DNA of 64,000 bases from Candidatus Aenigmatarchaeota archaeon. Its GTDB lineage: Archaea > Aenigmatarchaeota > Aenigmatarchaeia > GW2011-AR5. Below the pieces are notes generated by a model, which saw nothing but the letters and a program-made list of their open reading frames with translations, made no database searches and had not been told where the DNA came from. Shown piece by piece: positions 4,959 through 58,206 of this stretch. How positions within the stretch are numbered: the first letter of the stretch is position 1; each line of letters begins with the position of its first letter. The DNA lies in the NCBI GenBank assembly GCA_016184005.1, contig JACPDL010000003.1:62001-126000 (forward strand). Direction: 5' to 3'. A program made the translations under genes and the position numbers.

Positions 4959-5219
4959 CTAAATAGAATTCAGATATTGTCTTATTTCTCCAAGTCTCCA
5001 AGATAGTAGTGAAATATGAATACCGTAGTGTTTTCTTTTTGTACTGATAAAACCTTTCCTAATCAATTCATCTAAGGCGTTCTTCACAATCTTTTTGTCA
5101 TTGGATGGGACATGTCTTATCAGGTTTTCATACGTGGTTTGCTTATTGCCGATATAACGATGTGCAAGAAGGTAGTCAATTATAAAACGCTCTGCTTCTT
5201 TCTGTGTAAATTTTTGCAT
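4959..5219 (-). CDS. Predicted winged-helix DNA-binding protein
   Basis: 86 aa: TYENLIRHVPSNDKKIVKNALDELIRKGFISTKRKHYGIHISL; wHTH-like layout. Confidence 0.55.
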   Translation of the reverse strand: MQKFTQKEAERFIIDYLLAHRYIGNKQTTYENLIRHVPSNDKKIVKNALDELIRKGFISTKRKHYGIHISLLSWRLGEIRQYLNSI

Positions 5220-5235
5220 TATTTAGTTAAATAAT
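5218..5235. promoter_or_regulatory. Palindromic operator candidate between divergent wHTH genes
   Basis: ATTATTTA-GT-TAAATAAT, overlaps start codon of minus-strand gene. Confidence 0.5.
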
Positions 5236-5279
5236 GTTAACTTTAAATATCCGTATTGCCAATTATATTGTTGATTAAA

Positions 5280-5645
5280 ATGGGCTTGGTTCACATATTC
5301 GGAGAAAAACCTGTACCGAAGGTTCTGGATTTCTTTAGGGTTCATTCTTACTGGGATTATTCACTTAAAGATCTGTCGAAAGCTACAAAGATAAGCCACA
5401 GAACTTTGCAGCAGATAATCCCGCAACTTGTTAAGCATGGTTTTCTGAAATACACAAGAACAGAAGGAAAAGCGAAAATGTTTATTTTTAATAAAGAATC
5501 AAAAATAGCCAAAGAACTGCACGAATTTGCTCGAACAATAGATTTTGAGTTTTTATCTACAGACCATAAAAAAAAGCAGCACTCGCCTGAGATTGCCTTT
5601 GATCTTGGGAGAAGCGAAGCTTCTCAGAGATTCCAAAAAGCGTAG
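5280..5645 (+). CDS. Winged-helix transcriptional regulator with hairpin-repeat-encoded C-terminus
   Basis: YWDYSLKDLSKATKISHRTLQQIIPQLVKHGFLKYTRTEGKAKMFIFNKES; last ~13 aa (LGRSEASQRFQKA) encoded by hairpin repeat. Confidence 0.75.
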   Translation: MGLVHIFGEKPVPKVLDFFRVHSYWDYSLKDLSKATKISHRTLQQIIPQLVKHGFLKYTRTEGKAKMFIFNKESKIAKELHEFARTIDFEFLSTDHKKKQHSPEIAFDLGRSEASQRFQKA

Positions 5646-5656
5646 CTTTTTGAGAA
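5604..5656 (+). repeat. ~55-bp hairpin-pair repeat overlapping the 3' end of a CDS
   Basis: CTTGGGAGAAGCGAAGCTTCTCAGAGATTCCAAAAAGCGTAGCTTTTTGAGAATT. Confidence 0.92.
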
Positions 5657-5837
5657 TTTTGAAGATATACAGATTAAGCAGCGGAAAATACATTAGCCAG
5701 TTTCATTGCTTTTTTTCTTTGTAGTTAACTTCCTTGAGGAAATTGTCTATGGGGTTTTTCATTTCAATTTGAATGAAACCTTTTTATCATTGATTTGTGA
5801 AACAAACTAATTGTAACGAACAAGTAAATCAAGAAAT

Positions 5838-6773
5838 TTATTTTCTTGATGTCTGCCTTTGGTAAATTCTTTCCAGCACCTCAGGCTGCAGGAAAAAGTC
5901 CCCCGCTTCTGTAGGTGATAACCTGCCCGGTTTTAGCCTATACTTATCAACGCCTCCGGTTATAGGGGCTTCTATGTAATCTCGCAACGTACCTTCCAAT
6001 CTCAAGTAATGTGGTATTGCTTGGCGAATCTGCTCTTCTGGATTTTCGCTTGGTGTTCCGCTATTTTCTATCCATATCGAAGGCACACCCACGCCCAATA
6101 ACCAATCATGAATCTCGATAAACGCGTTGTAAATAACCCCTTCTTTGCTAAGACTCATTTGTCCAGCTGTGCCCACACCAATTTTCTGGCGATAAGCCCT
6201 TCTAAGAGGAATTTGTTCAAGCGAGCAAGTTACAATAATTTGCAGGTTTGGATACCAAATTCCCATATGTTCATTCAATCTACGTATAGCTTCCCATCTA
6301 TAAGGGCTGTCTTCACAACCCTTTGCTGGACAGGATTGATATGCCCAGCCTGTAACCTGCCATCTGTCCAGGATTACGTCTTGTTTTTGGACAGCCTTTA
6401 TGAGTTTCTCATTTACTATTGTCCTGCCAGCGGCAAACATGTAAGCAAGTGCTGCCTGCCTGTCCTTTTCAAGATCGGGCCCGTCCATGTCAAGCCGTTC
6501 AACGTAATCACGCGCGTTCTTGATAGCATCAAGGTACTGGGGATATTCCTCTTCAAGTTTATCCAAACCTTCAAAACACAGCATTCCAGATCTGTACATC
6601 TCATTTAATTTTGCGGTTGCTGGCCGCAAAGGGTCAAAAGTATTTTCTCTAATCACAACAGCATTCTCGCTTCTTTCGTAAAGCATCTGCACAAAAGTGC
6701 TTTTCCCTGCAAGTGATAAGCCATCAAAAGCTAAAATCGCATGGTCCTGATCAACTTCAGTTGACATGAACAT
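5838..6773 (-). CDS. P-loop kinase, thymidylate-kinase-like
   Basis: ILAFDGLSLAGKSTFVQMLYE Walker A; VILDRWQVTGWAYQS (DRx-like motif). Start trimmed because the longest ORF overlaps divergent pdhC. Confidence 0.65.
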   Translation of the reverse strand: MFMSTEVDQDHAILAFDGLSLAGKSTFVQMLYERSENAVVIRENTFDPLRPATAKLNEMYRSGMLCFEGLDKLEEEYPQYLDAIKNARDYVERLDMDGPDLEKDRQAALAYMFAAGRTIVNEKLIKAVQKQDVILDRWQVTGWAYQSCPAKGCEDSPYRWEAIRRLNEHMGIWYPNLQIIVTCSLEQIPLRRAYRQKIGVGTAGQMSLSKEGVIYNAFIEIHDWLLGVGVPSIWIENSGTPSENPEEQIRQAIPHYLRLEGTLRDYIEAPITGGVDKYRLKPGRLSPTEAGDFFLQPEVLERIYQRQTSRK

Positions 6774-6820
6774 ATCAAAACTGTCAAACTTTATAAGTTT
6801 GATTCTGCAATTTAATCGTA

Positions 6821-9599: not shown

Positions 9600-9722
9600 A
9601 TCTGCAAAGAACATAGTTCTTCTTGCAGAAACCTTTGGTTTCTGAAGACTCAGGAAAGCTTTGCTTTCCTCGAGTTGAGACCTCAGAGAACTTTTAGTTC
9701 TCTGCAGAAAACCCTAGGTTTT
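9600..9722. repeat. Array of five 3-nt-loop hairpins
   Basis: AAGAAC-ATA-GTTCTT; AGAAACC-TTT-GGTTTCT; AGGAAAGC-TTT-GCTTTCCT; AGAGAACT-TTT-AGTTCTCT; AGAAAACC-CTA-GGTTTTCT. Confidence 0.9.
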
Positions 9723-9729
9723 CTCCTTC

Positions 9730-41798: not shown

Positions 41799-43316
41799 GT
41801 GGTGACAAGATTGAAGAAAAAACACGACATTAGTGGCGTGACGGAAGAGGAAGAAGCCCACGGGAAACTTCACGATAAATCCGAGCTTGTTCCTAAAAGA
41901 GAGCGAACCGAGAAGCACGCCAGAAAAGCGCACCACAAATCAGGCAACGTTATAATGCATACGCTTGGCATAGTGAAGCAGCCCCTGTATACAAAAACTT
42001 TCGCCGCGGCATTCATTTTGTCTGCAATCCTTTATTCGTTCTTGTACGGCTTGTGGAAAATACCTGCAATTGAATTCGGCATCAACAGATTATCCGCTGT
42101 AGGAATTCTGGATTACTTATACCTGATTTTAATTTCGGCACTTGCAGGATTATTGTTCACTTTGTTCAAGTATGGAAGAATGCAATCAGTCAAATCAGGC
42201 TCAACGTTAGCCGGCGGGGGCGGTTTATTTGCAGGAATTGTTTCCACTGTATGCCCTGCTTGCCAAGGCATATCAATAGCAGCACTTGGCGGAACAGTGG
42301 CTGCATTACCGCTTGCGTTTCTTGTACCTTACATAGGCCTTATCCAATTTATCACTGTTTTTATTCTCGGATTTGCACTTTATCTTAAAGCAAACAGTAT
42401 ATTCACGCAGACTTGTATTTCATGCAATCTTGGAAGAAGCGAAACTTCTTCGAGATCTTCAGAGAAACGGAGTTTCTCCGAGATATATGGCAGAAACTTC
42501 GTTTCTGCCTATACAGGCGGAGCAAAGCTCCGCCATGTTCCGAAATCCTTTGGATTTCGAGAATTCCGAAAAGCTCTGCTTTCTGCAGGATTTGATACAA
42601 AGACAAAACACAAAGAAGAACCTTCCGGAAAAGAGCCTCTCCTATATCAGAATCATGTGTTCGCAGCCGTGATAGCCCTGGCATTGCTGCTGATAATAAA
42701 CAATTTCATGATAACCGGCGCATTCACGGCAGCAGGTGCGTCTTCAGCCAATGGCGGCAGCATAACCATCAAGCCGGGATTTGAATACGGTTCCAAGCTG
42801 ACGCTGAAACCCATGCCTCTTGCCAGCGGAGAAAGCCCAAGATTCCAGGGCTACAAATCTATAGTAAAGCCTTTGCCGACAATAAGCGAACTGTCAATGT
42901 CGCCGCCGACGGGCGATGTCACTAAGGATATTGCAAACAACGTTATCCCGAGAGGAACGCCGTGGTACGGTCAGGAAGCGGGCGTGAGCTTCGACGATCC
43001 CATAAAAGCACAGCAGCTCTGGGCAAAGGGAAGAGCAATCCAGCTGAACGGCGATGAGCAGAAAAGATGGGAAAGAATAGTAAATTCCTTTACATGCGAT
43101 TATTGCTGCGGATCGCCTCAGCAGCCGACAATAATTACGCGGTGCGGCTGTGCGCACTCCATCGCTGCACAAGGCATGGCAAAATGGTTTATTAAGAATT
43201 ATGGGGGCAAATATTCTGACGAAGAAATATACGGCGAGATGGCGCGATGGTATGCACTGTGGTATCCGGGCCCGACAGTCAAAAGAATCGTGCAGGAGCT
43301 GCAGGCAGCAAATTAG
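41799..43316 (+). CDS. Multi-TM protein with CPAC TM motif, internal hairpin-array-encoded segment and C-terminal CC...CGCAH domain
   Basis: VCPACQGISIAALGGTVAALPLAFLVPYIGL; SCNLGRSETSSRSSEKRSFSEIYGRNFVSAYTGGAKLRHVPKSFGFREF from hairpins; FTCDYCCGSPQQPTIITRCGCAHSIAAQGMAKWFIKNYGGKYSDEEIYGEMARWYALWYPG. Confidence 0.75.
   Translation: MVTRLKKKHDISGVTEEEEAHGKLHDKSELVPKRERTEKHARKAHHKSGNVIMHTLGIVKQPLYTKTFAAAFILSAILYSFLYGLWKIPAIEFGINRLSAVGILDYLYLILISALAGLLFTLFKYGRMQSVKSGSTLAGGGGLFAGIVSTVCPACQGISIAALGGTVAALPLAFLVPYIGLIQFITVFILGFALYLKANSIFTQTCISCNLGRSETSSRSSEKRSFSEIYGRNFVSAYTGGAKLRHVPKSFGFREFRKALLSAGFDTKTKHKEEPSGKEPLLYQNHVFAAVIALALLLIINNFMITGAFTAAGASSANGGSITIKPGFEYGSKLTLKPMPLASGESPRFQGYKSIVKPLPTISELSMSPPTGDVTKDIANNVIPRGTPWYGQEAGVSFDDPIKAQQLWAKGRAIQLNGDEQKRWERIVNSFTCDYCCGSPQQPTIITRCGCAHSIAAQGMAKWFIKNYGGKYSDEEIYGEMARWYALWYPGPTVKRIVQELQAAN
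42428..42590 (+). repeat. Six-hairpin array inside a coding sequence
   Basis: AGAAG-CGAAA-CTTCT; GAGAAAC-GGA-GTTTCTC; GCAGAAAC-TTC-GTTTCTGC; GGCGGAGC-AAA-GCTCCGCC; GAAATCC-TTT-GGATTTC; GAAAAGC-TCT-GCTTTC. Confidence 0.88.
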
Positions 43317-57638: not shown

Positions 57639-57760
57639 CATATCGTTCTTGATATAACCCACAACTTTAGTTGTGGGTTTGTTGAACGATGTGATCCCAA
57701 CATTGTTTATGTAGTATCTACCGACTAAAGTCGGTAGTTTTAAACAATGTTGAGGATAAG
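57639..57760 (-). repeat. Two-domain structured element, copy 4
   Basis: Reverse complement TTATCCTCAACATTGTTTAAAACTACCGACTTTAGTCGGTAGATACTACATAAACAATGTTGGGATCACATCGTTCAACAAACCCACAACTAAAGTTGTGGGTTATATCAAGAACGATATGAT. Confidence 0.85.
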
Positions 57761-58149: not shown

Positions 58150-58206
58150 TAATTCTCAAAAAGCTACGCTTTTTGGAATCTCGGAGAAGCGAAGCTTCTC
58201 CCAAGA
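58150..58206 (-). repeat. ~55-bp hairpin-pair repeat, near-identical inverted copy of 5604..5656
   Basis: Reverse complement CTTGGGAGAAGCTTCGCTTCTCCGAGATTCCAAAAAGCGTAGCTTTTTGAGAATT. Confidence 0.92.

Follow-up and report, generated by a model that had tools for sequence, protein, structure and literature searches.

Two copies of a double hairpin in the window, one with an inverted loop

The locus raises the question of how a short repeat that folds into two hairpins came to form the end of a protein gene, and how a second, inverted copy came to carry the reverse complement of one of its loops on intact stems. We analyzed a stretch of 64,000 nucleotides (the window, C4:62001-126000) from an Aenigmatarchaeota-type genome of 919 kb (0.92 Mb) in five contigs, G000, together with its syntenic sister species G001, which is about 95% identical. 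A search with a 28-bp core yielded exactly two matches in the window and none in 100 shuffles, and both copies that the original prediction had placed at 5604 and, inverted, at 58150 were found (Table 1). The predicted repeat length of 55 bp was close, the exact unit being 54 bp: the termini TCTTGGG...GAGAA were set by 58 aligned 5' ends, 52 aligned 3' ends and the empty orthologous sites of other copies, and the leading T belongs to the element, as it is found in 58/58 copies and is absent from the empty site CATAA^AGTAGG. As predicted, the two copies differ by one base (A/C after GCTTCTC) and by the loop of hairpin H1, GAA or TTC, while the second loop is GTA in both.

The element, laid out as TCTTGGG-hairpin-CCGAGA-TTCC-hairpin-TTGAGAA, is made up of two short perfect hairpins with 8-bp stems and 3-nt loops between the fixed ends TCTT...GAGAA, and the 3' GAGA feet of the two hairpins point the same way. 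This grammar, TCTTGGGAGAAGC-loop-GCTTCTCCGAGA-TTCCAAAAAGC-loop-GCTTTTTGAGAA, is fixed throughout our catalogue of G000 and G001. Folded as single-stranded DNA the 54-mer reaches -13.2 kcal/mol (z -3.5), and the z-scores of the element hairpins range from -3.5 to -5.3.

Table 1. Coordinates of the element copies, their hairpins and associated features in the window
Feature	Position	Strand	Remarks
Putative winged-helix-like regulator, 121 aa	5280..5645	+	Last 13 codons and stop from the element
Element A, short form, H1 loop GAA, H4 loop GTA	5603..5656	+	54 bp; termini from aligned copies and empty orthologous sites
Hairpin H1 of the 5603 copy	5609..5625	+	GAGAAGC[GAA]GCTTCTC
Hairpin H4 of the 5603 copy	5634..5652	+	CAAAAAGC[GTA]GCTTTTTG; GTA loop makes in-frame TAG stop
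Related multi-hairpin array	42428..42592	+	Nested 54-bp pair (TATATGGCAG...GCCATG) at GAGA^TTCC; outer ends approximate
Element A, short form, H1 loop TTC, H4 loop GTA	58153..58206	-	54 bp; intergenic, upstream of S-adenosylmethionine decarboxylase
Hairpin H4 of the 58153 copy	58157..58175	-	GTA loop on element strand
Hairpin H1 of the 58153 copy	58183..58201	-	Inverted loop, TTC on element strand

The residues that the 5603 copy contributes to the regulator are LGRSEASQRFQKA, in line with the predicted 13 or so codons, and joining its flanks in silico gives an ending ...SPEIAFDFEDIQIKQRKIH*. In the regulator frame only the GTA loop of H4 produces a TAG, while TAC, TGC and GCA loops keep the frame open; with a TAC loop placed at 5603 in silico, translation would read through into a longer tail. 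Homologues in G013, G017 and G016 match residues 1-102 only and have varied tails, and the core of the regulator is therefore probably untouched by the element. The winged-helix identity is a putative reading of the sequence, the ORF having no Pfam hit. The block of about 5027-6786, comprising the regulator and a thymidylate-kinase-like gene, is absent from G001. It is flanked by two pyruvate-dehydrogenase-type genes, and its flanks nearly abut in G001.

Family size and insertion sites

Beyond the two copies of the window, the repeat is a mobile, self-nesting and frame-neutral insertion element. The G000 genome holds at least 36 H1-type hairpins with up to 3 mismatches, the reversed control pattern giving 0, and 66 partial matches to the repeat; the number of H1-type hairpins in G001 is comparable. 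Our catalogue was drawn from roughly 430 kb of sequence in G000 and 330 kb in G001 and contains 51 elements for which both ends were found, 19 of them 54 bp and 21 of them 108 bp long. Many copies are intergenic and have no effect on a frame. A pattern scan of public genomes located the same hairpin only in metagenome-assembled genomes labelled Aenigmatarchaeota or 'archaeon', and the scan of viral contigs gave no match.

Comparison of the two species showed that the element inserts cleanly and is mobile. Exact empty orthologous sites, with flanks that abut to the base (gap 0), were found at L161:2262 and L163:6693, sites empty to within one base at L166:8284 and L101:13334, and further pairs of empty and occupied sites at L153:9729 and G1 L095:2180. 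No target-site duplication was present at the orthologous sites compared between G000 and G001, which departs from classical TIR MITEs and agrees with insertion as known for IS200/IS605; IS200 elements insert without target duplication. The target is loosely A^WNTWS: the base preceding the element is A in 37/58 copies, and GAGAA is followed by W-N-T-W-S, 43/52 copies having T as the third base. Most of this preference falls 3' of the element on the element strand, in contrast to IS200/IS605 when read on that strand. In G001 the site orthologous to 58153 (C64) is occupied by an identical copy whose loops are also the same.

In-frame copies inside genes

Several copies are carried inside proteins. 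An 18-residue insert lengthens a 77-aa protein to 95 aa when the site is occupied (L166) and a PCYCGC protein from 153 to 171 aa (L101), and inserts of the same size occur in a ParE-family protein and a VTT-domain protein; gapped alignments with uninterrupted orthologues show the in-frame inserts at L153 and L141. Counted by codon position, the VTT gene has 3/1/16 substitutions and the PCYCGC gene 6/1/13. In an AlkD-type DNA glycosylase a 36-aa insert splits the Pfam match into two stretches, and the solved AlkD structures (PDB) do not have this segment; other 36-residue inserts are located in a PKD protein and near the C-termini of two large proteins.

In-frame carriage is possible because the element lengths, 54 and 108, are both divisible by three and because most frames are open. 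The element consensus is open in 5/6 frames, which is modestly unusual, as about 14% of random stems with the same ends have at least five open frames. Genes read both element strands and use top frames 2 and 3 and bottom frames 1, 2 and 3, and since at least five frames are in use there is no conserved peptide. None of the verified coding positions contains a copy of frame-breaking length (55, 80 or 136 bp). Some long ORFs over elements (L102:727, L157, L169) were rejected or left open as coding, for they have no Pfam match, no clear third-position bias, or a true start possibly beyond the element.

Nesting of hairpin pairs

The long form (A+B) of 108 bp carries a second pair, TCTTCGGAGAAAC-loop-GTTTCTCCGAGATTCCGAAATCC-loop-GGATTTCGAGAA, exactly between the first two hairpins at GAGA^TTCC, and in these composites both pairs have TCTTnGG...GAGAA ends. 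The G001 orthologue of the array at 42428-42592 does not contain the nested 54-bp pair, which has accordingly been gained or lost. At another site shared by the two species (L160:9237 and L134:9112) one fused hairpin is found in G000 and two hairpins in G001; the fused hairpin is consistent with deletion between repeated GAGAATT feet.

Loop inversion

The original prediction proposed that all copies be collected and their loop inversions counted, random loop changes being the outcome that would speak against inversion. H1 loops are GAA in 35 copies, TTC in 13, AAA in 5 and TTT in 2, and 13 of the 23 non-major H1 loops are the exact reverse complement of the major loop. H2 shows GGA (8) and TCC (3) besides TTC (8) and GAA (1), H3 shows TTT (31) and AAA (2), and H4 has TGC (28) and GCA (2) along with TAC (9) and GTA (4). 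Altogether 14/26 loop types have their reverse complement within the same hairpin class (p=5e-6, 200,000 random draws). The counts thus do not bear out random loop changes; statistically, the loops of perfect hairpins have been exchanged for their reverse complements again and again. With so little phylogeny in copies of 54 bp, no exact number of independent inversions can be given.

In H1, H2 and H4, 114/132 loops have the form GNA on one of the two strands, so that they read as GNA or TNC; H3 with its TTT is the exception to this rule. Mini-hairpins of the type d(GCGNAGC) are unusually stable in DNA.

In nearly all copies common to both species the loops are unchanged, that of the 58153 copy (TTC) among them, and flips are for this reason rare events. 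Only one locus differs in loop orientation between the species (L169:9503 and L133). With both loops flipped it was considered as direct proof of inversion and set aside as ambiguous, since the nested pair differs too.

Template switching between the hairpin arms appears to be the best mechanism for the inversion. Interstrand template switching is known to invert the loops of perfect hairpins in other genomes (rRNA, microRNA; PMC8794818), and a further study describes inversion of the spacers of inverted repeats by template switching (PMC8604942). In the course of replication or repair a polymerase would jump from one arm of the stem to the other and leave the loop inverted, an occasional mutation, we infer, and not a programmed switch. 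Some loops could also be exchanged by gene conversion between copies. Of the proposal that the two copies reflect a hairpin-inversion or strand-switch process, recurrent inversion with intact stems holds, and a strand switch is the best explanation; an active flipping system is not supported, as shared copies keep their loops.

Mobilizing enzymes and alternative explanations

We consider it highly probable that the repeat is non-autonomous mobile 54-bp double-hairpin DNA, which accounts for clean insertion, nesting, in-frame carriage and, by template switching, loop inversion. In its mobile state the element would be a folded single strand of DNA on which a putative endonuclease or transposase acts in trans. 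What counts against this explanation is that no enzyme is tied to the element family among the Y1 transposases and reverse transcriptases looked for. No reverse transcriptase was found in G000 or G001, so that one encoded by either genome is unlikely. An archaeal REPIN/IS200-type system, in which the hairpins are non-autonomous ends served in trans by a resident Y1 HUH transposase (IS200 TnpA), is conceivable but doubtful. It would fit the insertion without target-site duplication, the two hairpins at the ends and their stability in single-stranded DNA, and IS200-type Y1 genes are indeed present in both species. These genes were nevertheless rejected as mobilizer: their own end hairpins (CCACCG..CGGTGG) are unrelated, their presence does not track the element family, the Y...Q motifs of the G001 proteins are of the IS200 type and not RAYT (compare PMC6006769), and no catalogued copy in G000 or G001 encloses a gene as an autonomous element would. 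In G004 related arrays occur without any Y1 match, the genomes compared being incomplete. The Y1 copies of G000 are fragments cut off at contig ends (C2 start, C3 end, C4 end; L091-L093), which suggests that multicopy IS200 broke the assembly there. Short CCACCG/CTACCGA...TCGGTAG hairpins at 57715-57745 of the window and at many other loci resemble the IS200 end hairpins and may be non-autonomous IS200 derivatives.

The loop differences could instead mark old GAA and TTC subfamilies that spread as such, a reading that the inheritance of TTC copies at shared sites favors and that we nonetheless regard as rather unlikely, for each of the four hairpin classes contains loops alongside their reverse complements, in mixed combinations too, which would still take one flip per class, at least four in total, or else shuffling between copies. 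Far less probable is a programmed inversion in which a recombinase flips loops to regulate genes such as that of the 5603 regulator. Flips do recur, and the in silico change from a GTA stop to TAC read-through would give such a switch an effect; on the other hand nearly all orthologous copies, including that at 58153, have the same loops in both species, many copies are intergenic and touch no frame, and four classes with different stems are all affected, which leaves no single recognition sequence. Equally improbable is a family of structured RNAs or transcription terminators that is not mobile DNA: although intergenic hairpin arrays could act in RNA, an Rfam scan of the window gave no match, presence and absence alternate cleanly between close relatives, copies lie in frame inside genes, and either element strand is read by genes. 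The preferred reading of a mobile double hairpin can be extended to a codon-neutral, self-nesting archaeal element whose spread, in the form of folded single-stranded DNA, would need no classical transposase; selection would favor GNA loops, stable in DNA, on either strand, and occasional loop inversion would create or remove host stop codons. In this extended form we hold the reading to be improbable.

Relation to known palindromic elements

Rickettsia provides the best-known examples of palindromic insertions in frame. The Rickettsia palindromic elements (RPE; Ogata et al. 2000, reviewed in PMC10969869 and PMC3733652) are likewise short dispersed palindromes lying in frame inside unrelated genes, and as here their mobilizing enzyme is not established (PMC10969869, PMC3733652). 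Insertion in frame inside protein genes is shared (L166, L101:13334, L153, L141 and the split AlkD gene), whereas a conserved peptide or one preferred frame is not; moreover, RPE measure about 150 bp compared with the archaeal 54-bp double hairpin, which also nests. REPINs of the REP-RAYT system (PMC3116915, PMC6006769) resemble the element as paired short mobile hairpins of high copy number without a gene inside, but are inverted doublets tagged with GTAG, whereas the ends here are TCTT...GAGAA without such a tag, and no RAYT-type Y1 transposase was found (IS200-type in G001, copies cut at contig ends in G000). IS200/IS605-derived palindromic MITEs such as the PATEs of Haloquadratum (PMC3119063) also have hairpin ends and an archaeal host; our element consists of hairpins only and does not share its ends with an autonomous IS in the genome. 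These features place it outside both the REP/RAYT and the classical MITE families.

Mitochondrial double-hairpin elements and yeast GC clusters (PMC4478555, PMC2800124) are tiny mobile hairpins that merge into larger clusters, and the combination of two hairpins, conserved stems, variable loops and mobility is found here as well, though on an archaeal chromosome and with a different sequence; GC42 uses an AG target. The template-switch inversions in rRNA and microRNA (PMC8794818) likewise turn a loop into its reverse complement on an intact stem; the difference is that the present flips occur repeatedly among members of a single repeat family. With the same perfect hairpins present many times over, this family from an uncultured lineage of archaea amounts to a set of replicate trials for template-switch loop inversion. 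Searches of open-access papers, a restricted sample and hence weak evidence, returned no report of archaeal palindromic elements inserted in frame. With its empty sites in a sister species, the present clean case from an archaeon offers a way to ask how selfish hairpins enter working proteins, and the missing mobilizing enzyme is a concrete search target.

Related arrays

Related hairpin-pair arrays were noted in the relatives G004, G010, G011, G013 and G020 (L064, L065, L068, L073, L080, L088). Some of these are enclosed by a longer outer inverted repeat, and the hairpin pair may there sit within a cloverleaf-like structure. The window itself contains, at 9607-9724, a different four-hairpin array with other ends (CAGAAACC[TTT]GGTTTCTG, AGGAAAGC[TTT]GCTTTCCT, CAGAGAAC.. 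and AGAAAACC..), and similar arrays are located in G001 at L145:5087, L148:4383 and L149:1499.
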